64,000 nucleotides of DNA from Apostichopus japonicus (taxonomy: Eukaryota > Echinodermata > Holothuroidea > Aspidochirotida > Stichopodidae): contig NC_092569.1 in assembly GCF_037975245.1 (NCBI RefSeq), positions 23,154,168 to 23,218,167 on the forward strand. Reading direction: 5' to 3'. The notes beneath the pieces were generated by a model. It did not search any database. It was not told where the DNA came from and was given only the letters and a program-made list of their open reading frames with translations. Below are positions 24 to 49,900 of this stretch, piece by piece; position 1 is the stretch's first letter; the number at the start of each line of letters is the position of its first letter. The position numbers and the translations under genes were made by a program.

Positions 24-291
24 GTAATACAAAGGCGTTTCGACGGGTCCATCGATTTCAGGCGCGACTGGGACAGCTACAAGTCTGGCTTCGGGTTTCT
101 CTCTCATGATTTCTGGCTCGGCAACGAGAAGTTGTCTTTCTTGACCAACCAGAAGAAATACCAACTGTTGATTGAGATAACCACATCAAGCGGTTACTTA
201 ATTCGGGTTTCTTACGATCATTTCCGTATAAGTGACGCCTTTAGTCACTTCAAGCTGGTCAACCTCGGAAACTATTCTGGAGAGAATACTG
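24..291 (+). CDS. copy A exon: first fibrinogen domain, middle part
   Basis: 268 nt, preceded by a CATAG acceptor and followed by GTGAGT; ends in phase 1. Encodes [12 protein letters not shown] through NYSGENT. It differs at only about four bases from the matching exon of copy C (33381-33648), one change giving RRF where C has RRT. Confidence 0.88.
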
Positions 292-3099
292 GTGAGTTAT
301 CACGGAAAAAATAGATATAAACGCAATATTATACCCACATTTCTTAAAAGGCTTTAATATATGTGAAGATTACTTGTTTCGTGACGTCGTCAAACATTTC
401 ATTAGATGACAGATATGCAGGGTCATCAGGGGAGATTCACTGACAAGCCTCTCTGGCCCATTTGGTACCTCCATCTATGGTCAACCATCGCTTTGATAAA
501 AGAATACATCTGAACTTTATTTATCAAACACTTCATTCACTTCATTAGGTAACATATATTCCGAGTAACATTAATGTAATAATAATTCAAATTAATTTTA
601 TCTTACAGATGCCATAACATTCACTTCATTGACACCAGCAAAAGATTGTCAGGAAATTTATGATGATGGTTCTAGAAACAACGGTATATACAGCATCAAA
701 CCAACCGGATGGACCGGGCCAGCATTTGAGGTCTACTGTAACATGACTGACGGAGGAGGATGGACGGTAAGTGCTATAGCCTACGATAAGCACGGAGATT
801 ACATTATGAACTATATAGTTCATTAGTAGATCTTGCACTGGAATACATTTTTCTCTAATGTAAGACTTACCTTAATCGTAACCATTCTTTTCACCGATCT
901 ATGTCTTTTATTGGATTTTCGTCATTTTCTTTGTCATTGTTCTTAATGATATTCGTTTTATATACAAGAACATTTTACATTGTACCACAGTCTATTGACA
1001 TTTATGCTTGTTGCGAATATCATATTTTTTATTCCTTACCTCCATGATTGAGGAAGTTTGGTTTGTTCTACCTTTGAACTCATTAATTTGCCAGATGAAT
1101 AGTTTTTACGTATCAAATAACCTTAAGAGGGTAGTTCATTTTGAGAATATGACATTTCAAATTTCACACCCGGGAGGCCACAAATATTATTCACGTTTGT
1201 GTTATTAACTACTTTTATCATTTTCAAATCTTTAAGGTGTTCCAGCGACGTGTCGATGGTAGTCAGGACTTCTACCTTGGATGGAACAGCTACAAGCAAG
1301 GATTTGGAAATTTAAATATTAATTTTTGGCTCGGAAATGATCAACTTTATTACTTGACCAACCAAAAGAGATATGAAATCAGAATCGACTTAGTGAACAG
1401 ATACGGAGCTCCATACTACGCCAAGTTTGACTTTTTTAGGACAAACGACGAAAGCGATAACTATCGGTTATCCGGTCTTGGGACCTACAGTGGAACAGCA
1501 GGTTTGTAGCCTACACATACCCTTTAATACTAAATATGATATTTTAGCCTTACTAGATAGTGAGACAACATATGGCAAACTGTTAACACCAACAAGTTAT
1601 CTTTTGTTCGATACTACCCCTCTCTAGAAATATATATTACTTCAGTTAAGTATAGTACATATTGACAAAACCTTAAGGATGAAGAAATAGATAACAAGGT
1701 AAGTAGGCTAAGCAAATGAAAGATATATTATATTTGTAATTAATAGCATGAGAATGGAAATTGTATCAAAATAGGAAACTACCTACAGTTGTCTGTTATA
1801 GTTTACCATTTCCACAATCCTGTCAACATTGTTAAATCCCTTCAAAATTGCACCGGCTGGAACTAATTATAAGCATCGTTGAACCATTAGTAAGAATCAA
1901 CGACTAACTGATAAATACAGGCAGGAAGAAAATTATGTCTGTATCACCTATTAGAAAAAGGAAAAAGTCAGTCCAAAGAGGGAACAATACACACATTTAA
2001 AATTAAAATTCATAGTATTCAAGTTATCAATCTACAGACGAGTATTAGTTGTCTTCCTTCGTCTATAAAAGTAGTAAATAACTGACTGACATGAAATGAT
2101 CTACATATCCTTACATTTGTTAATTTCCCTGTGACGAATTCTGCGAGTGGGAGAGGGAGCTTTGAACGGTTACTTCTATTGCACGAAACTTTTTTTTTTA
2201 ACCCAAGTGAATGAAATAAGTAGATAAGATCACAATGCATACATGCAATTACACCTCTCATACATTGGTTTACAATAACAAACCACGAACGAATGTAGAC
2301 ACCGATACTATTGTGATTACTTAATAGTGCAATAACACAACAAGCAAATCTTACTCTGGAAAAAATATATGAGCGTTCTGTAAATAGTTTATTTAGTAGG
2401 TTTAAACAAAATGACGATTTTCGCATTTGTGATCAGCTAGATATATATTTGACGGCTACATAATAATGTCTCTTAGTGATAATCACTGGAATGTAATGAT
2501 CTAGTATGGTGTGCAATAAAAGAGAGAATTATGGTCATGTGTGTACATCTGACTACTATAAAATAGTTATCAACAACTAATACGGTTTATTATATTGTCA
2601 ATAACACTACGACCCGATAATAGCTATTAACGAAAGAAAAAGCACTGCAAGATCTTGTTTACCCTAACATTATATTTATAAGTCTGCATATTGGATTTGA
2701 AGTTAAAATAATTAAGCAACCAATCTGAGTATATGTTAGTGCGATGCAATTACAACAAATGAATTAAACAAGGTTTAGCATGTATCAGACGTACAACAGT
2801 TATATTGATGATTGATATTGACGGTGTGTCTTTGTATTTGATTCATTCTACCAGGAGATGGCCTTAGTTATCACCGGAACCAGCAGTTTACAACAAAGGA
2901 CCGAGACAACGATGCTTATAGTAATTATAACTGTGCAATTAGTTATTATTATAATTACTATCATGGTGCATGGTGGTACAATAATTGCCTTCATTCTAAC
3001 CTGAATGGTATCTATGCCGCATATTATTTCATGTGGGATAACCTCCCCGGAAGTAATTATCATGTCAAATTTACAGAGATGAAGATCCGCCCTATCTAG
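24..3099 (+). CDS. FREP copy A, short form, 5' end outside window
   Basis: Four exons are visible: 24-291, 609-766, 1237-1501 and 2855-3099 (TAG at 3097-3099). They encode the middle of a first fibrinogen domain, then a complete second fibrinogen domain (DCQEIYDDG start, WLGND middle, DRDND calcium motif, GAWWYNNC, closing EMKIRPI). Junction phases run 1, 0, 1, the same as in copies B-D. The 5' exons (leader, linker, first half of domain 1) must lie left of the window. The exon at 609 joins the start of a TIL-type exon directly to a fibrinogen exon, so no TIL or EGF module is encoded. The predicted product is a secreted lectin-like recognition protein; no ligand can be deduced. A polyadenylation signal follows at 3199. 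No stop or frameshift is seen in the visible exons. Confidence 0.88.
609..766 (+). CDS. copy A fused exon: TIL-exon start joined to fibrinogen domain 2 start
   Basis: 158 nt between TTACAG and GTAAGT. It begins DAITFT, like the TIL exon of copy D (DALTFC), then passes into [12 protein letters not shown], the fibrinogen part of D exon 6. The intron just before it also matches the intron before D's TIL exon. Frame is kept. Confidence 0.85.
1237..1501 (+). CDS. copy A exon: fibrinogen domain 2, middle part
   Basis: 265 nt. Encodes [19 protein letters not shown] through GLGTYSGTA; phase 0 start, phase 1 end. The donor is the non-consensus GTTTGT, shared by all four copies, which supports common descent of the splice site. 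Confidence 0.9.
2855..3099 (+). CDS. copy A last exon: fibrinogen P subdomain with calcium site
   Basis: 245 nt ending in TAG. Carries [16 protein letters not shown] (calcium loop), [16 protein letters not shown] and EMKIRPI. The loop between NCA and GAWW is the longest of the four copies and is built of Tyr, Asn and Ser codons (TAT/AAT runs). Confidence 0.9.
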
Positions 3100-3198
3100 A
3101 GATTGAAGCAGATGTAAGAAAAAAACTATTACGTCGCTGATCAACAACAAAATACTCAAGAGATTCATTTTAAGAAGAATTGAATGTTTTTATTTGAA

Positions 3199-3204
3199 AA
3201 TAAA
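3199..3204 (+). terminator. polyadenylation signal of copy A
   Basis: AATAAA 100 nt after the stop codon, conserved at the same relative place after copy C (36489) and copy D (50504). Confidence 0.6.
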
Positions 3205-3391
3205 AAAGGACTACTTGTCCAATTTGTAATAGCACTACTCGCATTTTTTTCCAAGTTATCTAATTTATCTAATCTATTTTCCCGTTAAACTTACTATTGA
3301 ATATAATGAAATAAAAAGGAGTTTGACACGATTTGTGCAATATTGCAAATGAAATAGATTAAATGAAAACGAAAAATGCTACTACACAGTA

Positions 3392-13400: not shown

Positions 13401-16400
13401 AAATTGCCAAGATCCTTCGTTTCATAATGTCCAGATCAAAATTTAGGCAAAATATCTTGCTACTGAATCTATTGTTCCGAATATGGTTCAAACAAAATGT
13501 TGCATCAAGTTTAGAACTTAGATTGTTCTATCTCGATGAGCTATACATTTCTTGGCAGATATTTTGTATCCGGCAATGTCTATGCCTGTCTCTTCGAACT
13601 GATGTTGTCAAACTGTAAATCTCTAAAAATTAACTGAAAGAAACGGTAAGTCACCGGTTAGAAATGATTGAATTCAACTACAATTAAAATATTTAGCTGC
13701 TTAAACAATATACCTAGCATACTCGATCCATTTAATCGTTGTAACATTTTTTTTCTTGAGTCATAGATATCATTTTGATATCCATATATCTAACTTAAAC
13801 AAAAAGTGTACCAATTTATGTTGACTGTCTTTATACATAAAACAAGTACACACGTATAGCCAAGAACTTTAGCTATTATATGAACGTTTGGATATTGATA
13901 ATATTTGTTTTACTAACACGGCCGAACTAATAATTTGACAGGTTGCTTCATGAAACCGAGTGTGTTATAGTAAATAGTTTGTATGAAACTACAATGAAGA
14001 ATTGCAGCTTCAGCTTCATCAACTTTGCCAAACAGGAAGGGTCTGGTTTTGGCATGTGTGCTTATTTAGATCCGTTAAATTATTATGACAGTGTAGAGGA
14101 TATTTGTTTTTACAGGGAAGTTAAATCGTCGGATGCAAAGTGGATACACGGTTTGATATATGTTTGGTGTAGTCTTGTTAATCAATTGTTAGACAATGAT
14201 ACCGAAAATAACACACAGCACACCATTGTAATATATCTAGAAATGAGCATATAACAGTATTCGCCGCATATATATAGTTGTCTTAATTTGAGTAAATATT
14301 GAGTATTTAAGGAATTGTAATCTGAGCTATATTTAATTTAAAATTATAAATTAACAATCATTTCACTTCATTCTATCCCTATTCAAAGTAAACTCAATTT
14401 GACAACCGGGGCGATAACATGCCATTTGTCCGAGTTCCTATCTGTTTTATGTTGAAGAATCATTCATTTAAATTTGATAAAACTGAACTATTTTCATTAT
14501 TACAAGGGTTTCTTTGCTCTTAAAGTTACATAGCGTCCAATTCCTGAGGAGTGATGTCGTTAGAAATATCGCTTGTTTGGATTATTGTATTGTCTGTTTG
14601 TTTGGTAGACTGCAGAAGCTGGGACAAGTGATGCCGCTAACAGTGACGATGGGCCAAGTGAGTGTTTATGCCTTAACTCCTTACCATTGAATCAGATTAT
14701 AATAACATGTACATTTTGTTTCATTCATTCATTTCCCATGCTTATTGTAGAATTAGTGAGGAAACCATGAGTAATATTTCCACAAGAAGCAAAACTTAGG
14801 TATTACCTTTTCGAATGAAACAAAGGATTACACTGACACCATTTTTGGCATAATGTTAAAGCATTTAAAACATAGCTAGGAAAACGAAATGTTTGTATTA
14901 GGAGTTATCTCTCACTAATGTTCTTTAACCATATGTGATTGGTACATGTCTTTGAGAGAATGACAAATAGTTACAAAATACAGCCTTTGAACGTCAAAGT
15001 TTCACAAACTTCCTTTTTCTCTCACTCCATTGTTTATTAAAAAAGGTTCACAAACTACTTATTTGGAATTATTTCAGCCATGCAGAGCTCATGTTTCCCA
15101 TGCCAGTAGTGTAGATAGATACCTTTTTTTCAAAGTCACCATATTTGTGTTTTAATTGCCTCTTGGAAGTAAGTCAACTAATATTGAAGACATTGATCAC
15201 ATTAGTTCGATATGTGGTAGTATTATTATTTTTATTAAGTGTATGATAACAGTAAAATATGGTATTTATTCCGTCTTAAGCAAGGCTCTTCAGCATTTTT
15301 CTTCTATCAACAATCGAGTTACCCGAGAGATTGCAAGTTTGACGCCATAACTCATGTCAGATATGTCTGTTGAAGTGTAAAATACGTAATGATCCGCATT
15401 TTTCAGAGATTTTTAGCGATACTACGGGTGTGAAGTCTTTCGAATAGCGGAAATTCAGACCGTGTTGTTATTACATATGTAAACCATTGAAAACGCAAAA
15501 TCAACAAATAATGAGGACAAATATATTTTTGATTCCATCACATCATAGGTCAATCATCATTTTTCTTCTATCAACAATCGACTTATCCGAGAGATTGCAG
15601 AGAAGTCCAGGAGCAATGTTCATCTCATAACTCTACCGGTGTCTTCATGATCAAACCAGATGGCTATTTAGAACCTTTTGAGGTTTACTGTGATAGTACA
15701 GATATATCTGGTGGATGGACGGTAGGTGTATCTTCGATTAGCACTGCTTCCGTTCCACGTTACACTCAATATGTCAACATGTATGGTTAATGTACAATGT
15801 CCGGAGAAACAGTGACCTCATACTTCATAAATATGTATCTATTGGTGTGGGTGTGTATTGCCAATTAATAACTCTCGAGTAGTACTCTGGAATCATAAAC
15901 AGAAATTGTAACCGTACATGACTAGACCTATTATGTTTTGTTTCATAATAGTCCTTCGAAAATTCCTATGTTAAATCATCCTCTTGGTTCTTCATGTTTT
16001 AAAACTTAGAAATAAATAGTCAAGAAATGTTCAATGTTACAGTTTCCTGTTTGGTCAAACTTATCTACAGTTACTTGTAAACCTTTATTATATCAAAAGC
16101 TTACTTTCAATGTGATTGTAAACAGTTTCCAATCAATCCGTCTAATTATTCATCAGGTTATTCAACGACGTATTGACGGGTCCATCGACTTTGGTCGTGA
16201 CTGGGATAGCTACAAGACTGGCTTCGGGTTTTTATCTCGGGAATTTTGGCTCGGTAATGAGAAGCTCTCTTTCTTGACTAATCAGAAGAAGTATCAACTG
16301 GTTATTGACATGACAACATCAAATGGTTCCCTAATTCGTGTTTCTTACGATCATTTTCGAATCAGTGACGCCTTCAGCTACTTCAAGTTAGTAAACCTCG

Positions 16401-19400
16401 GACAGTATTCTGGGGAGACCGGTGAGTATTATGTTACTGTTAAAGGTTGAAGATAACTTAAGATGTAACTAGTTAGACAGAATGTTTAAAATGACAATTG
16501 TATTCCAGTTAAGAATGTATGTAGACTATGTACCTGAGACAGCTTTTGCAAGTTCTTGGAAAAATATTCTCCGTATTTAATGTTCAAGCTTGCACGACCA
16601 TTGCTCATCAACATCTCCATAAAACTTATCTAAGTGTTTTCAATCAATTCACTGTATTCACACAGATGTTGTCACATTGTGTCCAACAAACATGGCCTAT
16701 ACAAACTGCAGTACCGCTTGTCAACGAACTTGTGAAGCTCCAGGGATATGTCAGGATGACGTCTGTACGGAAGTTGAAGCCTGTGTTTGTCGCGATGGAT
16801 ACTTTTTGTTGGGATCAGACTGTGTACCTCGTGAACAATGTGGATGTTACGAATCAGAAGGGCAAACAATCATTCCAGTAAGTCATCTGAGAGTATTATT
16901 CCGAACGCCAATGGTTTTTCTACATTTGCAGGGTCATATCGTTACACTTCAATAATTCCAGCGAGTTTTACTCATTGGGTGACATTCATATATCAGTGGC
17001 GTGGCGTTTTAAATATATAAAAATTGAATTGTTGTCTACTTTCTTCGAATTCAGTGTTGTGTTTGCATGTTAGAATGTTATTTTATGTTTAACTCTTTAT
17101 TAGTTTTTATTCGTAATATCTAATGTTAGGATCTATCTGTCTATTGATCAGTGAGAAAAATGCAACATCCTACACACTAAGGTGATATTAATTATGTCAC
17201 GATGTGTTCCAATCAAATCGTACACATAAATAAATGATAGGGAGGGGCAGTGGTAAAACTAGGTATTGCATAGTTTGTGCTTAATGACAGGCATTGATAA
17301 CTCTTTGAGTACATATTTTGGTCTTCAGGAAGGCGAGTTCAATGTGAATCCTAGATGTACAAGAAAGGGTGTTTGTACCAACGGACAAATCAGCTGGGAT
17401 GAAACTTACGCTTGTAGTCCTAATGCGGTTTGTGACGTTAGGAACGACATAAGACGATGTTATTGTACTGGAGGTTACAGAGGTGATGGTGAAGTATGCG
17501 AGAGACCTCCTAAAGATTGTCAGGAAATTTATGAGGATGGAACCAGTGACGACGGTATTTACAGAATCGAACCAACCGGCTGGACCGGAGAGGCATTTGA
17601 GGTCTACTGTAACATGACTGACGGAGGAGGATGGACGGTAAGAGAAATAAATCGTTATTGAATGCGACAATATCCCAGTGGTGTAAATGATATGATGTTA
17701 TTATCCGCTGTTCAAGTCACTTCGGTAGCTACAAAGTACATTCAAAGTAACGGTTGTTGTAACGTGTGATACCTCCTTAGTTAATTACAGTTCGCAAAAT
17801 ACATATAAATTACTGAAAAAGCGACTAATGTTAACTTGTACCATGACAATTGCACATGGAGCTCTAGTTATTTGAACTTCTGTCATAGGTCAATTGTTGT
17901 GCGCTTAATGTTTTGAAATCTTCTTACAGGTCTTCCAACGCCGTGTTGATGGAACTGAGGATTTCTACCTAGAATGGAACAGCTACAAGCAAGGCTTTGG
18001 ACACATTGATCACGAGTTTTGGCTAGGAAATGATAAGCTGTATTACTTGACCAATCAAAAGAGATATGAAATCAGGATTGATCTTGTGAATAAAGAAGGG
18101 GCTCCGTACTACGCAAAATTTGACTTTTTCAGGATAAATGACGAAAGCGACAACTATCGATTATCCGGTGTTGGAACCTACAGTGGAACCGCAGGTTTGT
18201 CAACCTCGATTTCATTTCGTTATTTTCGAGTCTGGTTCGTGTTGCAATATTTTATTAAAAACCAAACAAATGTAACACATTACACACGCACATTATCAAT
18301 AAAGAATTCTTTTACAGTGACCCACACGGGTTTTATATCAATTGACCTGTGGGGCTACTCATAAAATGGTGACAGAGAGGAACTCAAATAAGCCAGACTG
18401 CAATTAACAGCTTATAAAATATCAAAAATAAGGATGGGACATGAAAATACATTCACAATAATCTATAGTACCCTGGGAGAATCCTACACAGACTGAGGTA
18501 GTTACCTCTACCCTAAGCCCAAGTTATATGAATTAGTATCGGTATAGGCCTGTACAATTAAGCAATATCTATAAGTTATGTAATACTTCTCGCACTTTTG
18601 TATCTCTACTTGTAGCTAACTGTGGTCACCAAATATAAACTACATAAACTGAATATTGTTCAGATTATTTTAAGGCAAGTTTAGGTATCATAATGTTGCG
18701 ATTCTCCGAGCCCATTGATGAAATTAGCAAACCTTGCGTTATATTTCATAAAATATACAATCTGTTAACGACTATGTTATTCACTCTAGTTTCTTCAAGA
18801 GCTCAAAATCATGTTTATCTGCCCTGTTCCTAAAATCCTTGGAAGTTATATTAAAACTCTTGATCTCTTTCGTGTAGTTTCAATGTCAGTTATTAGTTCA
18901 CCCAAGGAGCTGTGCTCTACTAAGTTAATCTTCAGGATTGTGTCAACCTGTTAAGACGGTAATAAGTGATTAAAATAACCCTTGTTAGAAACAAGGCACT
19001 AAATGTTGGCTTAACAGTGCCGAACTCAACTTATAAAAACACCTTAGTCGTTATCAAGGGAGGAAAATAGGTGAATTTTTTTCTATGATACCAACATTCC
19101 TTTCGATGAACCAACAACAGATGAAAACAAATGAAAACAGTAATATTATTACTCGCCAGTAATATTGTTACTGGCCAGATATAAGTAAACAAATTGTAAC
19201 TATTCGGTGTAAATAAATGAAATATGGTGGAGAGCAACGTTTCAGCAAATGACTGACATGATGTTTAGTATGAAGGATATCAAATAAAAATAAAATAAAA
19301 GTATATCACCTTTGTCATAAAGAAAAAAATGAATTTTCATAAAATACCACCCCTACTCACCTTCTACCCAAAATCAGAAAATTATAAAAGCTAGTCACTA

Positions 19401-19882
19401 CATTTTTTTTACATAATCCATGTAACTACTTTTTATAATTACATACGTATAATAATATAAGCATCAACATCAAAAGCAACAACACGAGAAACTTTTAATT
19501 ATCGGAGGTACTCACCTTCCTAACGTTATCTTTAAAACGAAATTTAAATAATGCTGCCAATTTACTGCTCTCTTATTGTGTTAAGGTAATTGTACCACTT
19601 CTTTAGATTTTGTGTTTTTTTTTTCTCTTTACAGATGATCAGAGCACTCCCGATGGTATTTCTCTAACGTATCACAGGAACCAACAGTTCTCAACAAAGG
19701 ACCGAGACAATGATGCTTATAGTGGTAACTGTGCGACTTATTATCTTGGTGCATGGTGGTTCAAAGACTGTTATTATTCTAATCTGAACGGTCGCTACGG
19801 GCATAGTTACTTTTATTGGTATTACCTCCCCGGAAGCAATATTTACCTCCAATTTGTAGAGATGAAAATTCGTCCAGTCTAA
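10400..19882 (+). CDS. FREP copy B, long form: FBG(partial)-TIL-EGF-FBG
   Basis: Eight exons: 10400-10480, 14609-14657, 15549-15721, 16157-16421, 16666-16877, 17329-17637, 17930-18194 and 19635-19882. All junctions are GT..AG and in phase, giving 1602 nt or 533 residues. Order: hydrophobic signal peptide; short Ser/Asp/Thr-rich linker; fibrinogen domain 1 without its C-terminal third; a ten-cysteine TIL module; a VWC/TILa-like strip plus EGF-like module; complete fibrinogen domain 2 with DRDND calcium loop. A secreted, disulfide-rich pattern-recognition lectin is the family expectation; the ligand is unknown. The start codon is the first ATG of the leader and aligns with those of C and D. No stop or frameshift is seen. 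Unlike A, C and D, the AATAAA after the stop has decayed to an A run near 19971. Confidence 0.92.
10631..11808 (+). repeat. direct duplication in copy B intron 1
   Basis: Two copies of a unit of about 0.6 kb (10631-11272 and 11273-11808). Shared landmarks are GCAATAAAT.TAGAG, GATGCTTCGTAAG and AAATCCAGAGGTTGTATTCC. A subunit of about 95 bp is present a third time at about 11377. AT-rich and non-coding. Confidence 0.75.
11809..14608 (+). other. rest of copy B intron 1; no gene seen
   Basis: AT-rich. A 103-codon open frame at 13943-14254 has no recognisable domain, splice context or paralogue and is probably chance. Confidence 0.5.
14609..14657 (+). CDS. copy B exon 2: linker
   Basis: 49 nt encoding TAEAGTSDAANSDDGP plus one base (phase 0 to 1). 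Acceptor GGTAG, donor GTGAGT. The matching exon in C is 46 nt; D has lost its first half. Confidence 0.75.
15549..15721 (+). CDS. copy B exon 3: fibrinogen domain 1, N-terminal part
   Basis: 173 nt. [17 protein letters not shown] leads into the domain and FEVYCDSTDISGGWT closes the exon. It carries an extra cysteine (EQC) that domain 2 lacks. Confidence 0.9.
16157..16421 (+). CDS. copy B exon 4: fibrinogen domain 1, middle part
   Basis: 265 nt, [19 protein letters not shown] through GQYSGET, ending in phase 1. One codon shorter than in A, C and D (ET for ENT). No exon for the calcium-binding third of domain 1 follows. Confidence 0.9.
16666..16877 (+). CDS. copy B exon 5: TIL cysteine-rich module
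   Basis: 212 nt encoding 70 residues with the spacing C-C-C-C-C-C-CxC-C-CxC, starting [19 protein letters not shown] and ending REQCGCYESEG. This matches TIL modules of protease inhibitors and of VWF-type mucin-like proteins. In this context a structural or interaction module is as likely as an inhibitor. Confidence 0.88.
17329..17637 (+). CDS. copy B exon 6: VWC/TILa-like plus EGF-like plus start of fibrinogen domain 2
   Basis: 309 nt. The first part is CTRKGVCTNGQISWDETYAC; then an EGF-like module with spacing C-C-CYC..GGYRGDGEVC; then KDCQEIYEDGTSDDGIYRIEP to GGGWT. Fusion of EGF and fibrinogen start within one exon is shared with D exon 6. Confidence 0.88.
17930..18194 (+). CDS. copy B exon 7: fibrinogen domain 2, middle part
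   Basis: 265 nt, [19 protein letters not shown] through GVGTYSGTA, with the family-specific GTTTGT donor. Confidence 0.9.
18195..19634 (+). other. copy B last intron; no gene seen
   Basis: AT-rich; a short near-direct repeat AGTAATATT.TTACT occurs twice near 19140-19170. No coding match. Confidence 0.5.
19635..19882 (+). CDS. copy B last exon: calcium/ligand subdomain
   Basis: 248 nt ending in TAA. It has extra residues at its start (DDQSTPDG) compared with A, C and [21 protein letters not shown] is a short version of the variable loop. Ends EMKIRPV. Confidence 0.9.
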
Positions 19883-29600: not shown

Positions 29601-32600
29601 CGAACAATATAAGTTCCGATAACTTTTCTCGACTACTTACTTAGAGTAAAAGATTCCGGGATACAGGATACATTGGAAAGACCTTACATCCAACTAAATA
29701 GGCTGATAATTTTTTGAATATTCGAAAATTCAACATTTGTTGATTTGATCTTCTTTTTCTTTATGTCAGACTCTTAATAATTAAGATCACAGCGACTGTA
29801 TGTTTGTATTTTAACACTGACAGTTTATTGCTGAACATTGATACTTAATATTTTGACGATACGTTTGTACCTAAGGGCTACCTCTGTGTATTATTGTTAT
29901 GTTAGCTGAGCGATACAATTAGTTATTGGTATACATTTCTTAACCGAGTATGTCATAATAGCTTTAAAAAGGCACCTCATTTTACTTAAATTTGATCACA
30001 ACTAACAGTTACATCAATCCCATACTCGTAGATACATAACTTTTACGTCATTAATTATTATTTATAACAACACAAATAAAGTGTTACTTAGAAAGAAAAA
30101 AAAAACAACCGTAAGATAACAAAAAAGGGAGGAAGTTTTAATGCCATAACTTGTTGTCAGCCAGCAGAAGATTTTGCATTTTTCATTAACTATCTTTTTA
30201 TCTATATTTTCCTCTGAAGTTTAATACACCATTTTCGATTGTAAAAATAAAAGTATTTCCTTCTCAAAATAAACTGATATTCCGGAGCAATGTCTGTGTC
30301 TGTTTTTGTTTTAATGAAAAATACAATAGTAACAATTCATTTAAAGGGAATGCCACTTATAAGTTTTTCTAAAAAATATATGTCGTAATTTATTTATTCT
30401 GTATCATTAGCTAACAAATCTATACTTGAATTTGCTATTTCTGGTTCGGTTGTCACTTTAAAAAAAAGGGGGTGTTGATATGTGTTTACAACATAACCTG
30501 AAATTACATGTGCATTGTGCAATATTTGTCACTTCATTGATTTCGTTATGTTTTACACAGCTGGTACGAACATTTTAAATCTTCCCACTCCCTAACACCT
30601 CAAAAATAGTAATATATTAAGTTTTCAATGTCAACATAAAAACCGTATAGGAAATTATCAGGATTTAATTCAGTAAGGTTATAATTATATTGTTTCCTGG
30701 TAGATATAAAGCTCTTACAGCATGTAAACGAAATAAGTGCATTTTCGCTTTAACTGTCTCGTCAATTTCTTTCTCTTCAGTGTAAAATTTCAAATGCAAA
30801 GATTGAGATTGATCTCTGTTTAGAAAGAACGACAATGCCTATATCAATTATTTTTTTGTCAACCAGGAAGGTTTAAGATTGGGGAATGCAAGTTAGAATT
30901 GTAGAAGGAAGAGTTATTGTTGTAAAAACGTAAACACAACAGAGTACAATCATTTTCATCTGCTAGTCTAGTCTACACATTTAATTTGCATCTTAATTCA
31001 TTATCATTCGAGCGTTGTCTAATGAGCCCTCGAAGGATTTATGAGTACTGATTATTTATAGTGGAGCTAGGCTGTTTATCTGAATTCTGTTTAGTGTTAA
31101 CCTATACCATGTCTCTTTTAACGGTACATTACAAATATCTGTATTAACACTTCTAATAGATTCAAACACTCCATGCCTTGGCGATACATGTTTTCATCCT
31201 CCCACTCCCGTTGTTTGAGAGAGGAATGTGTGAACTTGTTAGCTTAATGTTTGAAATGGACAACTCGAGTAAAGATAAAAGCGAGTCGAGTGATTTGTGT
31301 TCATCATCGGTCCCCCTCTCTGTCTTCTCATTTCAATTGGAATACATTTTTCTTTCTAATTTCAAATGAACCAATTTCAATAATTTCAATTTCAATAGCA
31401 ATATTGTTGCACCCATAGAGTAACTGACATCTTCGCTATCCCCAAATCTATCCAACCGGCAATCACTACTTGTTTTTTTAGTTGATGTATTCAAGTAGGC
31501 CCAGTAAGTATTTCCAGTAATACTTCTCAACGTAAATGGGACACACATTTCACATTTACTCCGTAATATAATGAAAACCTGTTTTCAAAAAAGTTTGAAA
31601 TCTTTTTTCAGAGCTTGATATCCAGAGGTCACTGATTCGAATCATGTTCTATCCAAAAGCTCTTTGCTCTATTCCATTGTTTAAAACAACAAAGTCACTT
31701 TCCTGTTATTCATTTACATATATATATATATCTTTTTTCTTCGGTTAGAGTGCCCAACAGACAAGTGATGGATCTACTAATGGAAAGATATTAGGTGAGT
31801 GATGCTTACCCCTCTTGATTCCAAATATGTAATTTAAATATAGTAAACCCTTGTTACATTATATTTATCATGTAAACAACACATGCATTAGGGCATGATT
31901 TTTTTTTTTTGGGGTGGGTGTGGTTCGTCTGAAGTATTAGTGGACGAGAATGGAAGAGGAGGTAAGGTGTTTTGGAGCATTCAAATAGAAATCTATCTTA
32001 ACAGTTAAACAAAACAGTCGATATAACTCATGTTAGATTTGTATGTATTGTGTAAAGTAGGCAGTGTTAGGTTGTGCTGTTAGAGTAACTTTTTTCTGCA
32101 AAACTACAAGTGTGAGACCTTTCGGATAGTTGAAATTAAGAACGTGTTGTATGCAATATATGTAAACCAATATCAAAAATGCAAAGTAAAAAAAATAATG
32201 TGGACAATTTTTTATTTATTTCTTTGCTTTTTAGGTTCATCATCATTTTTCTTCTATCAACAATCGACTTATCCGAGAGATTGCAGAGAAGTTCAGGAGC
32301 AATGTTCATCCCATAACTCTTCCGGTGTCTTCGAGATCAAACCAGATGGTTATCCGGAACCATTTGAGGTTTACTGTGATAACACTGACAGTTCCGGTGG
32401 ATGGACGGTATGTCTTTGGTTTCTTGCTCTAGTATTAACAATTGTCAGACTGAAACAATCATGTTCACAGCAGCTGGAAGAGTATTAACGATGTTACTAA
32501 CATAGGCGTTGGAGGCGGGGGGGGGGGGGGGCTGGGGTGGCTGCAGCCCCACAACCAATTTTTTTTGTGAAACTTCGGGCAATATGCTGAGAATTTTTCG

Positions 32601-35600
32601 GGCACCAACTGAAAGAAGAAAAAATTGCAGTGTGTTTTTCAATATTTTTGGTGAAAATTCGGGCTATATGCTGAGAATTTTTCGGGCACCTACTGAAAAA
32701 AGAATAATTTGCAATGTGTTTTTCATTTTTTGGGGGGTGAAAATTCGGGCAATATGCTGAGAATTTTTCGGGCACCTACTGAAAGAAGAATAATTTGCAA
32801 TGTGTTTTTCATTTTTTGGGGGGTGAAAATTCGGGCAATATGCTGAGAATTTTTCGGGCATCTACTGAAAAAAGAATAATTTGCAATGTGTTTTTCAATG
32901 GTTAAACTGATATTATTATTATCGTTATTATTGTAACGACTTTCCCAATAATTCTAACCAATATGGAAGGGTAATAACACGGAATATATAACCAAAATTT
33001 TTCGCGCTCTCCGCGCGCGTTCAACATCTTAATGTGCATGTCAAATAGGCTTTCATCGGTTATCGGCATGTGATGTAAAACCGATGAATGCCTATATGAT
33101 AGCACATTAACATGTTGAACGCGCGCGGAGCGAACAAAAATTTTGGTTATATATTTCGGGCAAGTCGTTACACCCCCCCCCCCCCCCCAATCAAATTAGG
33201 CTCCTACGCCTATGGTTACTAATATCGGTAACAATGTTATATATGTTTAAGTTACATTGTGCTATTCATTTATTTTTTAATTACCTAAAAACAGAGACGG
33301 CTGTGCTGGATGCCAAATATTACGCATTGAATGAAAGATCAGTAACTCTCAAATCATTTCGGTAACGACTCTGTCCATAGGTAATACAAAGGCGCACCGA
33401 CGGGTCCATCGATTTCAGGCGCGACTGGGACAGCTACAAGTCTGGCTTCGGGTTTCTCTCTCATGATTTCTGGCTCGGCAACGAGAAGTTGTCTTTCTTG
33501 ACCAACCAGAAGAAATACCAACTGGTGATTGAGATAACCACATCAAGCGGTTACTTAATTCGGGTTTCTTACGATCATTTCCGTATAAGTGACGCCTTTA
33601 GTCACTTCAAGCTGGTCAACCTCGGAAACTATTCTGGAGAGAATACTGGTGAGTTATCACGGAAAAAATTAGATATAAACGCAATATTATACCCATATTT
33701 CTTAAAAGGCTTTAATATATGTGAAGATTACTTGTTTCGTGACGTCGTCAAACATTTCATTAGATGACAGATATGCAGGGTCATCAGGGGAGATTCACTG
33801 ACAAACCTCTCTGGCCCATTTGGTACATCCATCTATGGTCAACCATCGCTTTGATAAAAGAATATATCTGAACTTTATTTATCAAACACTTCATTCACTT
33901 CATTAGGTAACATACATTCCTAGTAACATTAATGTAATAATAATTCAAATTAATTTTATCTTACAGATGCCATAACATTCACTCCATTGACACCAGCAAA
34001 AGATTGTCAGGAAATTTATGATGATGGTTCTAGAAACAACGGTATATACAGCATCAAACCAACCGGATGGACCGGGCCAGCATTTGAGGTCTACTGTAAC
34101 ATGACTGACGGAGGAGGATGGACGGTAAGTGTTATAGCCTACGATAAGCACGGAGATTACATTATGAACTATATAGTTCATTAGATCTTGCACTGGAATA
34201 CATTTTTCTCTAATGTAAGACTTACTTTAATCGTAACTATTCTTTTCACCGATCTATGTACAATGTCGGAATTTTTCGTTATTTTCTTTGTCATTGTTTT
34301 TAATGATATTCGTTTTTATATACAAGAACATTTTACATTGTACCACAGTCTATTGACATTTATGCATATTGCGAACCTCATCATTTGTATTCTTTACCTC
34401 CATGATTGAGGAAGTTTGGTTTATTCTACCTTTTAACTCATAACCGACATGTTGAAGGTCTTACGTTTCGAATTACGTTTAAAGGTAGTTCATTTTAAAA
34501 TAAGATGAAAATTTCAGATTTCACACTTGGGAAGCCACTAATATTATTCACGTTTGTGTTATTAACTACTTTTATCATTTTCAAATATTTAAGGTGTTCC
34601 AACGACGGGTCGATGGTAGTCAAGACTTCTACATTGGATGGGACAGCTACAAGCAAGGATTTGGAAATTTAAGCATTAATTTTTGGCTCGGAAATGATAA
34701 ACTTTATTACTTGACCAACCAAAAGAGATATGAAATCAGAATCGACTTAGTGAACAGATACGGAGCTCCATACTACGCCAAGTTTGACTTTTTTAGGACA
34801 AACGACTTAAGCGACAACTATCGGTTATCCGGTCTTGGGACCTACAGTGGAACATCAGGTTTGTAGCCTACACATCTCCTTCAATACTAAATATGGTATT
34901 TTAGCATAACTAGATAATGAGACACCACCAGGTTATCGTTTCATCGATAATACCACTTTCAAGAAATATATTTTAACTTCAGTTAAGTTGAGTACATAAT
35001 GATATCACCTTAAGAATAAAGAAGTAGATAACAATGTAAGGAGGCCAAGCAGATGAAAAATCGATTATATTTGTAATTAGTAGCCTGAGAATGGAAATTG
35101 CATCAAAATAGGAAACTACATACAGTTGTCTGTTATAGTTACCAGTTTCACATTCCTGTCAACATTGTCCAATACCTTCAAAAGTGCACTTTAATGGAAA
35201 CTAATGATAAGCATCGTTGAAACATCATTTAGAATCAGTGATGTACTGATAAATAAAGGCAGGAAGAGAATGCTGTCTGTATCACGTATTAGGAAACAGT
35301 ATAAGTCAGTCCAAAGATGAAATTGCAGAAAGCTAAACAATAGACAAATTTAAACTTACAATTCATAGTATTCAAGTTATCTCCGTTTGTCTTTAAAATT
35401 AGTAAATAACTGACTGACATCCTCAGAACATTTAAGACTGATCTACATATCCTTACATTTGTTAATTTCTCTGAGACGTATTCTGGTAGTTGGAGCAGGT
35501 AATCCATTGCGCGACACTATTAGTAAATCATGCCACATGCAGTAGTGACACTTTCCAGAACGCTAACAACTGAGTATTTGTCTTACGTGCAACAATTCCG

Positions 35601-36383
35601 TTAATTTATTTCATACATATAATTACACCTCTAATACATTGGTGATGAATACCAAACCACAAACGAAATGTAGACACCAAATCAATTGTGTTTATTTAAT
35701 AGTGCAACAACGCAAATAGTGAATATGTCCATAGTTATTAAGAAGGGCTAAACAAATGAAGATTGCCGCATTTGTGGTGATCCTCGATGATGAGATGCCT
35801 CTTAGAGATAAACACTGGAATATAATGATCTAGGATGATATATAATTAAAGAGAGAATTATGGTCATGTGTGTACATCTGACTACAATAAAATATTTAAA
35901 AACAATTAATATCGTATATGCATTATCAATAAGACCACGACCCAATGATAGCCATTAACCACATAAAGCATCGCATTACCTCGTTTTCCCTCAACTAAAC
36001 TTATACATTGAAATAGTATAATTGACGTAAAGAATGTTAATCAACCAGTCTGAGTATAACGGAAGGTTTAGGATGTATCAGATATACAACAGTTATTTAT
36101 ATGATTTGTATTGAAGGTGTGTTTTTTTATTTGATTCTTTCTTCCAGGCGATGCTCTAAGTCGTCACCGGAACCAGCAGTTTACAACAAAGGACCGAGAC
36201 AATGACGCTCATAGTTCTTATAACTGTGCAAGTTATTATTATTATAATGGTGCATGGTGGTACGATGACTGTCATGATTCTAACCTGAACGGTGTCTACG
36301 GGGCGTATTATTTTTATTGGAGAAACCTCCCCGGTAGTTATTATTATATCAAATTTACAGAGATGAAGATCCGCCCTATCTAG
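26524..36383 (+). CDS. FREP copy C, short form: FBG(partial)-FBG
   Basis: Seven exons: 26524-26601, 31749-31794, 32235-32407, 33381-33648, 33967-34124, 34594-34858 and 36148-36383 (TAG). Phases are consistent and total 1224 nt, 407 residues. Order: signal peptide ([15 protein letters not shown]), linker, truncated fibrinogen domain 1, then a complete fibrinogen domain 2. The TIL and EGF modules present in B and D are missing, through the same fused exon as in copy A. No stop or frameshift is seen and the AATAAA at 36489 follows the stop. Intron 3 carries a 714-bp transposon. The predicted product is a secreted lectin-like protein; specificity is unknown. Confidence 0.92.
26801..27500 (+). repeat. 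tandem duplication in copy C intron 1
   Basis: Two units of about 348 bp, starting at GTTTTGAT.GTTCAAAAGAT at 26801 and 27149. The same pair exists in D at about 41062-41715, so it predates the C/D duplication. Confidence 0.75.
28166..29175. other. 1-kb segment in copy C intron 1 absent from D
   Basis: The paralogous sequence in D passes directly from TAGTTTTCA to AAATTAGGAAACGG near 42455. Either an insertion in C or a deletion in D. AT-rich; no gene or clear terminal repeats. Confidence 0.6.
31749..31794 (+). CDS. copy C exon 2: linker
   Basis: 46 nt, [15 protein letters not shown] plus one base; acceptor after a TCTTTTTTCTTCGG pyrimidine tract, donor GTGAGT. Confidence 0.8.
32235..32407 (+). 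CDS. copy C exon 3: fibrinogen domain 1, N-terminal part
   Basis: 173 nt, [20 protein letters not shown] to NTDSSGGWT; donor GTATGT. Confidence 0.9.
32566..32900 (+). repeat. four tandem repeats of 84-86 bp
   Basis: ATATGCTGAGAATTTTTCGG recurs at 32582, 32666, 32752 and 32838. Each unit also carries TTGCAATGTGTTTTTCA or a variant. Confidence 0.9.
32983..33155. repeat. foldback palindrome inside the 714-bp element
   Basis: Arms of about 75 bp sharing ATATAACCAAAATTTTT, CCGCGCGCGTTCAACAT and TTCATCGGT, around a loop of about 20 bp. Confidence 0.85.
33381..33648 (+). CDS. copy C exon 4: fibrinogen domain 1, middle part
   Basis: 268 nt, [19 protein letters not shown] to NYSGENT, phase 1 end. 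Nearly identical to the copy A exon at 24-291, introns included. Confidence 0.9.
33967..34124 (+). CDS. copy C fused exon 5: TIL-exon start joined to fibrinogen domain 2 start
   Basis: 158 nt, [20 protein letters not shown] to GGGWT. Same fusion point as in copy A. Confidence 0.88.
34594..34858 (+). CDS. copy C exon 6: fibrinogen domain 2, middle part
   Basis: 265 nt, [19 protein letters not shown] to [15 protein letters not shown] donor. Confidence 0.9.
34859..36147 (+). other. copy C last intron; no gene seen
   Basis: Paralogous to 1502-2854 and 48780-50169 with many small indels; non-coding. Confidence 0.55.
36148..36383 (+). CDS. copy C last exon: calcium/ligand subdomain
   Basis: 236 nt ending in [23 protein letters not shown] precedes [14 protein letters not shown]; ends EMKIRPI. 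Loop length lies between those of A and D. Confidence 0.9.
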
Positions 36384-43900: not shown

Positions 43901-46900
43901 CAACATGAAAAACTTAAAAGAACTTATCAGGATTTAATTTATTATGGTATAATTATATTGTTTCCTGGTTGATATAAAACTCTTACAGCATGTAAATGAA
44001 ATAAGTGCATTTTCGCTTTAACTGTCTTGTAATTTTTTTTCTCTTTAGTGTAAAATTTCGAATGCAAAGATTGAGATTATTCTCTGCTTAGAAAGAACGA
44101 CAATGCCTATATCAATTATTTTTTTGTCAACCAGGAAGGTTTAATATTGGGGAATGCAAGTTAGAATTGTAGAAGAAAGAGTTATCGTTGTAAAAACGTA
44201 AACACAACTGAGTACAATCATTTTCATCTGCTAGTCTACACATGTAATTTGCATTTTGATTCATTATTATTCGAGCGTTGTCAAATGAGCCGTCGAAGGA
44301 TTTGTGAGTAATGATTATTTGTAGTGGGATTAGGATGTTTATTTGAATTCTGTTTAGTGTTTACCTATACCATGTTTCTTGTAAAGGTATATTACCAATA
44401 TCTTTTAACACCTCTAAATAGATTCAAACACTCCATGCCTTGGCGATACATTTTTTCTTCCTCCCACTCCCGTTGTGTGAGAGAGAAACATGTGAGCTTG
44501 TTGGCGAAAATATTTTGGAATGGACATCTTGAGAATAAACAAAAGCGATGCGAGTGATATGTGTCCATCACCCGCCCCCCTCTCGTTCCTCTTATTTCAA
44601 TTGGAATACATTTTCTTTCTAATTTTAAATGAACCAATTTCAATGAAAAGATTGTTGCACCCATATAGTAACCGACATCTTTGCGACCCCAAATCTATTT
44701 AACAGGCACTCACTACTTGTTTTGTTAATCGATTTATTCAAGTACACAACATATCTGCATCGGTAATGCCATCTCCGATGCTGTTGTTCTCGACTACTCT
44801 GTTCCACAAAGCTCGGTTTTGGGTCCTCAACTCTTCACTATCCATACTTATCCAGTTCGAGATATTATCCTCAAGTATAATCTCCAGTATCATGTTTATG
44901 CTGATGACACTCAGATCTACTTCTCATTCAAATCCTGTCAACACGATGCTGACTCATCACTCAGAATTATGGAAAATTGTATACAAGAAATTCGGTGTTG
45001 GATGCAGCAAAACTTCCTTAAACTGAATGATGATAAAACTGAATTTGTGCTTTTCGGATCTCGGCAACTACTATCAAAGATCAGTCTCCCTTTTATACGA
45101 ATTGGGGACTCACAAATTGTTCCTGTTTCTCAAGCTAGAAGTCTAGGAGTGGTCTTTGATTCTTTCATGACGATGAAGCCACATATCTCTAATGTTATCC
45201 GTTCATCCTCATTACACATTCGGAACATTGGTAGGATTCGAAAGTACTTAAATCGTGTTGCTGCTGAACAAATCGTTCATTCATTTATCACTTCTCGTCT
45301 GGATAATGGAAATGCCTTACTCTTTGGTTTACCACAATCTCAGCTCTCCCGACTTCAACGTCTTCAAAATACTGCAGCTAGAGTTGTAACTTTGTCAAGA
45401 AAATCGTCTTATATAACACCTATACTACGAGATCTACACTGGCTACCTATTTCTTATAGGATTATCTACAAAATTCTACTCATTGTTTTTAAATCACTTA
45501 ATAACATGGCTCCTATATATTTTTCAGAATTACTCCAATTGTACTCTCCATCACGGAATCTTCGTTCAAGCAGCACGCTTAACCTCCAGGAACACAGGTC
45601 TAAACATTTGTGGGGTGACAGGTCTTCAGGGTTGCCGCCCCACGCCTTTGGAACACTTTACCATATGAACTGAAGTCATGCACCAGTATTGCAGCTTTCA
45701 AGAAACACCTTAAAACTCACCTTATGCGTGAAGCTTTCCAGTAGTTTTATTTGACTTTTTTCCATGTTGCGCCTTGAGCACCCTGTAGGGTGGATATGTG
45801 CGCATTATAAATCTCTGTTATTATTATTATTATTACGCCTAGTAAGTATTGCCATTAATAATTCTCAACGTAAATGGGACACATACTTCACATTGACTCG
45901 GAATATAATACGAACCTGTTTTTAAAAAGTTTGAAATCTTTTTCAGAGCTTGATATCCAGAGGTCACTGATTTGAATCATGTTGTATCCATAAACTTTGT
46001 TTCTCTATTCAATTGTTTAAAACAACAAAGTCACTCTCCTGTTATTCATTTACATATATGAATTTTATTAATGGAAGCTGATTTCAGGTATTTTTGGGCA
46101 TTCAAATTCACAATAGTCGTCAGAAATCATGTCAGATAAGTCTATTGAAGTGAATAGTACGTAGTGATCCACATTTTTTCTTAAAGTCACTTTTTGTTGG
46201 AAGAGCAACGGGTGTGAGGTCTTTCGAATAGTGTAAATTAAGAACGCTTTGTATGCTATATATGTAACCAAAGAAAAAAAACACAAAGGTAACACATGAG
46301 GACAACTATTTTTTTTTATTCCATCATATCCTAGGTCAGTCATCATTTTTCTTCTATCAACAATCGACTTATCCGAGAGATTGCAAAGAAGTCCAGGAGC
46401 AATGTTCATCCCATAACTCTTCCGGTGTCTCCATAATCAAACCAGATGGTTATCCGGAACCATTTGAGGTTTACTGTGATAACACCGACAGTTCCGGTGG
46501 ATGGACGGTATGTCTCTGGTTTCTCGCTCTTCTCTCGACAATTTTCAGACTGAAGCACAGCAGCTGAAAGAGTAGTAAAGATGTTAGTAATACAAGTGAC
46601 CAAGTTGCATGTGGTAAACAAAAATACGTTCTGTTTTTATTGAGTAAAGAAAGAAACGACTGTTATGGATGCCAACATTTAAAACACCGAATGAAAGATC
46701 AGTGACTAACAAACCATTTCGGTAACGACTCTGTCCATAGGTAATACAAAGGCGCATAGACGGGTCCATCGATTTCCGGCGCGACTGGGACAGCTACAAG
46801 TCTGGCTTCGGGTTTCTCTCTCATGAATTCTGGCTCGGCAACGAGAAGTTGTCTTTGTTGACCAACCAGAAGAAATATCAACTGGTGATTGAGATAACCA

Positions 46901-49900
46901 CATCAAGCGGTTACTTACTCCGGGTTTCTTACGATCATTTCCGTATAAGTGACGCCTTCAGTCACTTCAAGCTGGGCAACGTCAGCAATTATTCTGGAGA
47001 GAATACTGGTGAGTTATCACGAATAAATTAGTTTACAATGCATAATCATACCCACATGTCTTACAATGCTTAGATATAAGTAAAGATGTATTGTTTTGTG
47101 ACGTCGTCAAACATTACATAAGATGACGGATATGCAGGTTCATCAGGGGAATATCATCGACAAACCTCTCTGGCCCATTTGGTACATCCATCTATGGTCA
47201 AACATAGCTTTGATTTAAGAACACATCTGAACTTTACTTATCAAACACTTAATTCACTTCATATTGTTAAATACATTCCCAGTAACATTAATGTAATAAT
47301 AATTCCAATTAATTCTATCTTGCAGATGCTTTAACCTTCTGTCCTAGCAATATGGACATTGATAACTGCAGTACCGCTTGTCAGCGAACTTGTGAAGCTC
47401 CAGGAATCTGTCAGGATGAGGTCTGTACTGATGGTGAAGTCTGTTTTTGTCCCGATGGATTCTTCATGAAGGGATCTGACTGTGTACCTCGTGAACAATG
47501 TGGATGTTACGTATCAGAAGGACAGACGATCGTAGCAGTAAGTACAGGAGCCATCCATTACAGATATACAAAACGACTCTTTACTTTAATAAACAAATTG
47601 TACGTTACTGCTTTGTTATGTATAACATTCATCTCAGTTCAAAGAATTGGTACAAACTGGAGTAAGAGATGACTGCATACTGTAATATTAAAACATGTTA
47701 AATCATAACATACGATAATTTTGACAGGAAGGTGACTTTTTCGTGAATTCTGGATGTACAAGAAAGGGTGTTTGTAATAACGGACTGATCATCTGGGATG
47801 AAGGTTACGCATGCAGCCCTAAAGCGGAGTGTGGCGTACGAAATGACATAAGACAATGCTATTGTGCTAATGGCTACAGAGGGGACGGTGTAAATTGCAC
47901 GAGACCACCTAAAGATTGTCAGGAAATTTATGATGATGATAGTACCAGAAAGAGCGGTATATACAGAATCAAACCGACCGGATGGACCGGGTCAGCGTTT
48001 GAGGTTTACTGTAACATGACTGATGGAGGAGGATGGACGGTAAGTGTTATAGCCTACGATAAGCACGGAGATTACACGATGAACTATATAGTTCATTAGT
48101 AGATATTGCACTGGAATGCATTTTTCTCTAATGTAAGACTTACTTTAATCGTAACTATTCTTTTCACCGATCTATGTCCAATGTCGGAATTTTTCGTTAT
48201 TTTCTTTTTCATTGTTTTTAATGATATTCGTTTTTATATACAAGAAATTTTTGACATTGTACCACAGTCTATTGACATGTTTACATATTGCGAATATCAG
48301 AATGTGTATTCTGTATACCTCCATGATTGAGAAAGTTTGGTTTATTCTACCTTTAAACTATTTACATTAACAGGTTAATAGTTTTTACGTATCAAATTAG
48401 CATAATAGGTATACCATTTTGAGAATATGATATTTCAGATTTCACACCCGGGAGGCCACAAATATTATTCAACTTTGTGTTATCAACTATTTTTATCATT
48501 TTCAAATCTTTAAGGTGTTCCAACGTCGTGTCGATGGTAGTCAGGACTTCTACCTTGGATGGAACAGCTACAAGCAAGGATTTGGAAATTTAAATATTAA
48601 TTTTTGGCTCGGAAATGATAAACTTTATTTCTTAACCAACCAAAAGAGATATGAAATCAGAATCGACTTAGTGAATAGATATGGAGCTCCATACTACGCC
48701 AAGTTTGACTTTTTTAGGACAAACGTCGAAAGCGACAACTATCGGTTATCCGGTCTTGGGACCTACAGTGGAACAGCAGGTTTGTAGCCTACACGTCTCC
48801 TTTAATATTAATTACAGTATTTTGGCATAACTTTATAATGAGACACCACCAGGTTATCGTTTCATCGATACTACCTCTCTCTAGAAATATAATATAACTT
48901 TAGTTAAGTATAGTATATACTGACATTATCTTAGGGAAACAAGTAAATAACAAGGTAGGAAGGCCAAGCAGATGAAAGATAGATTCTATTTGTAATTAAA
49001 AGCCCGAGAATGGAAAGTTGCATCAAAATAGGAAACTACCTACAGTTGTCTGTTATAGTTACCAGTTCCACAATCCTGTCAACATTGTTAAATACCTTCA
49101 AAATTGTACCGGCTGGAAACTAATTATAAGCATCGTTGAACCATTAGTTAAAATCAACGACTAACTGATAAATACAGGCAGGAAGAGAATTCTGTCTGTA
49201 TCACCTATTAGAAAAGGGTAAAGTCAGTCCAAAGGGTAAACAATACACACATTTGAACTTAAAATTCATATTATTCACGTTATCAATCCACAGACGAGTG
49301 TTTGTTGTCTTCGTTTGGTTTTAAAAGTAGTAAATAACTGACTGACATGCTCAGAACATTTAGAAAGGATCTACACATTCTCACATTTGTTAATTTCTAT
49401 GAGACGAATAATGGGAGTGGGGCCTTTGAACTGTTACATCTATTGCGCGAAACTTGTTTTTTTAACCCAAGTGAAAAATATATCTTAGATAATAAAACAT
49501 TCAGTATGACATCTCACATAACGTTAACAATACACATGCAACAATTATGTTAATTTATTTCATCACAATGCATACATGCAATAACACCTCTCATACATTG
49601 GTTTACAATACCAAACCACGAACGAATGTAGACACCAATACTATTGCGATTACTTAATAGTTCAATATCACAACAAGTGAATCTTACTCTGGAAAATTAT
49701 AAAAGCATTCTGTACATAATTTATTAAGAAGGTTATACAAAATGACGATTGTCGCATTTGTGATCAGCTAATTAAATATTTAACGGCTACATGATGATCC
49801 TCGATGATAAGGTGCCTTCCTCTTAGTGACAAACCAGGAATGTAATGATCTAGTATGATGTGCAATAAAAGAGAGAATATGGTCATATGTGTAAATCTAA

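Follow-up and report, generated by a model that had tools for sequence, protein, structure and literature searches.

The Apostichopus japonicus genome paper (PLoS Biol 2017, PMC5638244) describes fibrinogen-related proteins (FREPs) as the gene family of greatest expansion, and reports 21 tandem FREP genes on one scaffold that are up-regulated in visceral regeneration. These are tandem fibrinogen-related genes like the ones analysed here; the main text of that paper has no occurrence of TIL, EGF, domain loss or domain architecture, and gives no domain cassette, exon fusion or breakpoint. The available text of a Holothuria glaberrima preprint (PMC13228809) merely cites the A. japonicus expansion. 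A literature search, which covered mostly papers open without subscription, returned reports of FREP expansion and no account of the exon fusion described below.

We analysed a window of 64,000 nucleotides, by which we mean the whole stretch of A. japonicus chromosome C9 under study, containing four genes (A, B, C and D) of one FREP family. Mollusc-type FREPs combine IgSF and fibrinogen domains. By contrast, the Pfam matches of B, C and D at E 0.001 include no immunoglobulin domain. IgGFc-binding and zonadhesin-type proteins contain TIL-TILa units, and the TIL domain followed by a TILa-like cysteine pattern in B and D resembles these units; however, no von Willebrand D domain is found among the Pfam matches of B, C and D. 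Ficolin, FIBCD1 and tachylectin-5A (PDB 4r9t, 4m7f and 1jc9) are similar in sequence and fold to the second fibrinogen domain (FReD2) of these genes, but the matched chains, of about 220-270 residues, cover one fibrinogen domain, and no half-fibrinogen domain (half-FReD) was seen in front of it in these matches. Among database proteins, the product of gene C is the A. japonicus 'fibrinogen-like protein A' (P0011; identity over 381 residues), and 'techylectin-5B-like' (P0001) is a long-form sister of D. Neither name says anything of a fusion.

Results

Genes and domains in the window

All four genes lie on the forward strand, and their spliced frames have a stop at the final codon only (Table 1). 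In Pfam searches, B and D encode a half-FReD, a TIL domain, a TILa-like module, an EGF-like domain and a complete fibrinogen domain. C matches fibrinogen models, plus a weak COLFI match, and no other Pfam model. A TIL domain between the fibrinogen parts is therefore found in B and D and not in C, and the DNA of A and C likewise lacks it. Each of the genes B, C and D has two stretches that match Fibrinogen_C (PF00147), with E values of 8e-99 to 6e-106. While the TIL match exceeds its Pfam cut-off, the TILa match (E 3e-4, 21.1 bits) is under the 27-bit cut-off and the EGF part of D (EGF_3, 24.7 bits) under that of 28.5. The initial annotation had labelled the middle module VWC; no VWC family is among the Pfam matches of B, C and D at E 0.001, and the module is TILa-like instead.

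FReD2 is complete, with a last exon to itself and matches to entire ficolin heads. The first fibrinogen domain is a half domain because it has no last exon of this kind. Ligand and calcium binding by ficolins reside in the part corresponding to the FReD2 last exon, the part that the half-FReD does not possess.

Two further elements were observed in the window. Gene C has a tandem repeat at 32556-32897, within the intron that separates its first two FReD exons; the copies are offset by about 85 and about 170 bp and are 92-93% identical. Upstream of D, an open stretch at 44780-45484 matches the reverse transcriptase model RVT_1 (E 3e-11) and is probably a retroelement fragment.

Table 1. Positions of the genes, exons and junction discussed in the text (window coordinates unless a chromosome is named)
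Feature	Position	Strand	Remarks
Window	C9:23154168-23218167	forward	Apostichopus japonicus chromosome C9
Gene A	from 24	+	leader and first half-FReD exon matches just upstream of window (L036)
Gene A second half-FReD exon (N1)	24..291	+	exon model
Gene A fused exon	609..766	+	14 nt of TIL exon, then six codons TSLTPA, then FReD2 start
Gene A deletion junction	622..623	+	ACATTC, then ACTTCA
Gene A FReD2 exon	1237..1501	+	exon model
Gene A last FReD2 exon with stop	2855..3099	+	exon model
Gene B	14609..19882	+	long architecture as in D; outgroup of array
Gene C	31749..36383	+	six-exon model
Gene C exons	31749-31794, 32235-32407, 33381-33648, 33967-34124, 34594-34858, 36148-36383	+	
Gene C fused exon	33967..34124	+	junction as in A; one T to C change (S to P)
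Gene D	46335..50399	+	half-FReD, TIL, TILa-like, EGF-like, FReD; model without leader exon
Gene D TIL exon (cassette retained)	47326..47537	+	exon model, Pfam
Gene D TILa-EGF exon, also bearing FReD2 start	47728..48039	+	exon model, Pfam
D counterpart of DNA absent from A and C	47340..47898	+	derived from coordinates: 198 nt exon + 190 nt intron + 171 nt exon

An in-frame fusion of two exons

Self-alignment located the DNA missing from A and C. Positions 1-622 of A align with D 46718-47339 (88.7%) and positions 631-2218 with D 47901-49480 (86.7%); the corresponding blocks of C are 33275-33980 with D 46634-47339 and 33989-37235 with D 47901-51246. What A and C both lack between the blocks is the greater part of the TIL exon, the intron that follows it and the beginning of the next exon. 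Together with the exon models, this result confirms the proposal that one exon in each gene joins the start of the TIL exon to the end of the TILa-EGF-fibrinogen exon. Both fused exons are 158 nt long, are entered in phase 1 and left in phase 0, and are flanked by AG/GT sites, and the frames of A and C are open, in agreement with an exon-to-exon deletion that keeps phase. Alternative splicing was rejected as the cause in A and C, as the DNA itself is absent.

The left break lies 14 nt into the TIL exon, after D-A-I-T-F, which is close to the 15-20 nt of the initial annotation without falling in that range; comparison with the TIL exon showed that these first 14 nt of the fused exon derive from it. 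The right break had been placed just before KDC. It is instead found 171 nt into the next exon, directly behind the last EGF cysteine and six codons ahead of KDC. Because both breaks fall between codons, at the ends of the cassette, the splice phases are kept and no cassette cysteine remains. Measured in three unfused genes of the same array, the lost stretch amounts to 654 bp (L016), 540 bp (L017) or 541 bp (L018). In all three, its coding part comprises 123 codons, 18 of them for cysteine, and is free of stops.

The parent gene type and the probable mechanism of deletion

The bases around the junction were compared with those of unfused genes. On the left side, L017 and L018 read ATGCTATAACATTC up to the break and TGTCCC beyond it, where the fused exon reads ATGCCATAACATTC up to the junction. 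On the right side, L016 reads GAAACTTGC before the break and ACTTCATTGATACCAGCAAAAGATTGT behind it, and the fused exon continues from the junction with ACTTCATTGACACCAGCAAAAGATTGT. The TSLTPA codons of the fused exon fit L016 (ACTTCATTGATACCAGCAAAAG against ACTTCATTGACACCAGCAAAAG) and not D, which encodes TRPP. From the junction to KDC, L016 is one base from the fused exon and D is several bases off, so that D, originally taken as the parent type, does not fit this role. L017 and L018 are without the GCA codon behind the junction and read TSVTP. When 16 unfused genes were read, TS.. was found behind the EGF cysteine in L016, L017 and L018 only, and RPP or RPS in the other 13. A long-form A. 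japonicus protein on a further contig, P0160, reads TSLIPA, as in L016.

Mismatches to the fused junction number one in the 22 bases behind it for L016 and, in the 14 bases before it, one for L017 and L018 or two for L016. Microhomology at the breaks is at most 1 nt, a single common C in L016 and L017; if the parent had TGC as in L016, the C at the junction can be assigned to either side. Untemplated filler was also considered and rejected: eight bases of A (623-630) are unaligned against D but match L016.

For all nine fused rows, the nearest TIL-bearing row is L018 on the left flank and on the right flank. An intragenic deletion is therefore the simplest origin. The second-nearest row on the right flank is D or L024 for seven of the nine and L016 for two. 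Behind KDC, the fused exon reads DDGSRNNG, as does the long-form A. japonicus protein P0005, which is listed with another contig, but L016, L017 and L018 do not. No gene compared here fits as the parent throughout: L016 fits before KDC but P0005 is nearer behind it, and the second-nearest rows vary.

Alternatively, unequal crossing-over between neighbouring array genes, broken in the TIL exon of one and in the TILa-EGF exon of the other, might have made the fused exon as an intergenic recombinant. The tandem array does show exchange, in that cassette and flank distances disagree (for L017/L018, 0.047 against 0.229), and the context of the left break is nearer to L017/L018 whereas that of the right break is nearer to L016. 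However, the agreement of both flanks on L018 in every fused row speaks against a recombinant, and breaks with so little common sequence are unlike homologous exchange; we regard such an origin as unlikely. A single intragenic in-frame deletion in an L016/L017/L018-type gene, followed by spread through duplication, very probably explains the fused genes.

Fused copies in the genome

The initial annotation reported the fused exon in A and C. Both are real, but they are not the only ones: among 40 matches scored from 132 candidates in a genome search, 10 copies reach 98% identity or more across 157 or 158 of the exon's 158 bases, and every one of them lies within C9:22.41-23.23 Mb. They belong to nine genes, with two copies in L009 counted as one gene, and to seven distinct genes when the near-identical pairs C/L010 and L011/L015 are collapsed. 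The junction is identical in the 10 exons apart from one substitution common to C and L010. A search for the base pattern behind the junction gave 11 matches in 671.6 Mb, all at C9:22.38-23.23 Mb, and none for a reversed control; the matches are eight fused copies plus L016, L017 and L018, with C and L010 falling outside the pattern by one base (the T to C change). Among 161 proteins returned in three protein searches (13 candidates were scored in the third), only P0011 and P0014 bear the junction, and both come from the same 37.46-Mb contig.

The N1+fused+F2 frame is open in seven of the nine fused genes; in L011 and L015 it is interrupted by a common stop that lies in the FReD2 exon (codon 146 of 230). 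AG/GT splice dinucleotides are kept in all nine over these exons. Pooled pN/pS is 0.245 over 21 non-independent pairs of the seven distinct genes, L011 included. The near-identity of some copies, as between the C and L010 regions, might be taken to reflect uncollapsed haplotypes and the fused exons to be an artefact of assembly or annotation. Nevertheless, a junction common to seven distinct genes with different flanks, together with the open frames and the intact splice sites, opposes this explanation, to which we give next to no weight.

Other features of the copies were noted. In L009 (C9, 22.41 Mb), the half-FReD exon and the fused exon are tandemly duplicated at 2222-4173, with an offset of 1079 bp and 861 of 873 aligned bases identical, and the exon order predicts half-FReD, half-FReD, FReD. 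Near-identical sequences about 0.67 Mb apart pair C (33381-36383) with L010 and D (46741-48779) with L024, involving the L037 and L038 regions; the C and L010 regions agree at 99.6-99.8% over about 9.4 kb. The near-identity of C/L010 and D/L024 reflects either recent segmental duplication or an uncollapsed haplotype. In L029, the TIL exon of an array member (2509-2719) is one base short and runs into stops, and this copy looks broken from its sequence.

Probable single origin and direction of the change

Trees were built from 27 left-flank rows, from 26 right-flank rows and from both combined. The fused rows form a clade with support of 73/90, and in 74% of bootstrap trees, on the right tree and of 75/15 (75%) on the combined tree, and one state change is needed on each. 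On the left tree, L012 is placed outside with support of 92/86, the remaining nine fused rows form the sister group of the 15 TIL rows, and two changes are needed; a single fused clade is not rejected on this tree (p-AU 0.186). Tree support for one fused clade inside the array is thus weak. With the junction common to the 10 copies, and one change on the right and combined trees, a single origin of the deletion, as initially claimed, is most likely.

The direction from long to short that had been assumed is borne out by the outgroups. In genes B and L030 the cassette occupies the same position and has the same phase, and exon matching found TIL and TILa-EGF exons in the same order in L031-L035. 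Cassette dS between D, L016, L017, L018 and L028 on one side and B and L030 on the other is 0.48-0.75, and the corresponding values are 0.70-0.81 for FReD2 and 1.1-2.5, near saturation, for N1. Fused and unfused genes differ by a dS of 0.08-0.30 over N1+F2 (7 by 6 comparisons). As cassette dS to B and L030 exceeds the fused-unfused dS, the cassette predates the split of fused from unfused genes, which makes the short form the derived one. Since the cassette is less distant from B than its flanks are, B-type genes may have taken part in some older exchange. Among six unfused genes, too, the distances of cassette and flanks disagree, indicating that array members exchange pieces; deep branches in the array are weakly supported by the trees.

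Could the short form be ancestral in the array and the TIL-TILa-EGF cassette a later insertion? The left-flank tree, with L012 first and the fused rows not nested among TIL rows, would be consistent with this order of events, as would the lower divergence of the cassette from B and the cassette-free forms elsewhere in the family. Against it stand the shared place, phase and exon order of the cassette in the outgroups, a cassette that differs clearly more from those of B and L030 than the fused genes differ from the unfused ones, and the confinement of TS.. to three of the 16 unfused genes read, the other 13 having RPP or RPS. We therefore judge a late insertion very improbable and retain loss of the cassette as the direction of change.

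Predicted structures of the long and short forms

An AlphaFold model of P0011 (80 sequences) has a mean pLDDT of 89.1 and a pTM of 0.61, with both fibrinogen parts confident and pLDDT falling to 72-83 in the new linker. For the long form P0001, modelled with 78 sequences, the values are 87.3 and 0.54, respectively. The half-FReD (residues 58-186) has the same structural elements in both models, and the linker shrinks from about 136 residues in P0001 to 14 in the short form. In these models, the deletion would thus leave the complete fibrinogen domain untouched and shorten the linker. Comparison of FReD2 with ficolin and FIBCD1 heads gave E 7e-55 by sequence (4m7f) and a TM score of about 0.9 when target-normalised and 0.5 when query-normalised. 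The resemblance to ficolin-like lectins is one of sequence and fold, and any carbohydrate or acetyl-group binding is putative.

Linker variation across the family

Linkers were obtained from 152 of 163 proteins (159 found and four from the window), and a family tree was built from 135 rows. Rows with incomplete domains were left out, winA was added by hand, and 11 rows (P0009, P0022, P0033, P0036, P0134, P0137, P0139, P0143, P0148, P0152 and P0155) were dropped by name for belonging to other phyla or classes, for extra domains or for odd models. Labelled by linker length and cysteine count only, in an uneven sample made of the best 120 of each search, 87 rows have the canonical length, 18 are without cassette, 17 are shorter than canonical ('noTIL'), 11 are long and two are EGF-size. 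The label 'without cassette' changes eight times on this tree, with eight changes forced by starred branches (quick method, SH-aLRT only), a count that cannot separate gain from loss. Since A. japonicus itself and Holothuria leucospilota have other cassette-free half-FReD/FReD proteins, with different linkers, the short form is not the new protein architecture that it was first thought to be. Of the 18 cassette-free linkers, 16 have no cysteine or two, and those of P0141 and P0144 have one, under a label that itself allows at most 2.

Some cassette-free rows may be isoforms: the first part of P0121 (isoform X4) shares 172 of 180 aligned residues with the cassette-bearing P0026. Splicing may also vary the linker, as P0095 and P0056 do not differ in the columns kept for the tree, which cover the fibrinogen parts, and have different linkers. 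At the DNA level, cassette-free P0119 has a different linker exon, starting near an FVDC motif, and a weak-threshold search of 9.7 kb gave no credible match to TIL, TILa or EGF remains there. The cassette-free state was therefore reached by more than one route.

Several proteins show other arrangements. The TILa-EGF pair is repeated in A. japonicus FREPs, with five pairs in P0012 and four in P0018. P0131, P0132, P0135, P0140, P0129 and P0130 have cassette-free linkers whose first residues resemble TIL (such as CPPNTV...C) and which lead into the second fibrinogen part; to judge from these residues, they are possibly other TIL-exon fusions with a deeper break. Linker states seen in sea cucumber FREPs thus comprise none, EGF-like only, no TIL, TIL-TILa-EGF and repeated TILa-EGF.

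Discussion

In the sequence of events that we propose, one intragenic deletion of about 540-650 bp would have occurred in an L016/L017/L018-type gene of the C9 tandem FREP array. The alignment shows its outcome, the fifth codon of the TIL exon joined to the codon behind the last EGF cysteine of the next exon. The deletion may have proceeded by end joining with at most 1 nt of common sequence. The shortened gene then gave rise to the nine genes with 10 fused exons that are present today, presumably by tandem and segmental duplication. To judge from sequence and the AlphaFold model, the product would be secreted and would consist of a half-fibrinogen domain, a linker shortened from about 136 to about 14 residues, and a complete ficolin-like fibrinogen domain. 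Its likely effect would be to bring the two fibrinogen parts close and to remove the TIL/TILa/EGF arm, with the recognition domain unaltered.

It is possible, although we hold it only tentatively and rather doubt it, that the linker of holothurian double-fibrinogen lectins is an adjustable module, repeatedly removed or multiplied in frame between disulphide units, whose loss leaves no cysteines or an even number, so that the arrays would yield varied spacing of recognition units.

An event of this kind is ordinary, but its resolution is good, with an exact break and cysteine-neutral ends: the loss of three cysteine-rich domains from a multidomain lectin-type protein in one step is resolved nearly to the base. 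One array holds sister genes with the cassette, seven distinct descendants without it, and outgroups. The case points to a labile linker module in holothurian FREPs, and because the linker of sea cucumber FREPs varies, their arrays are usable for testing its role.
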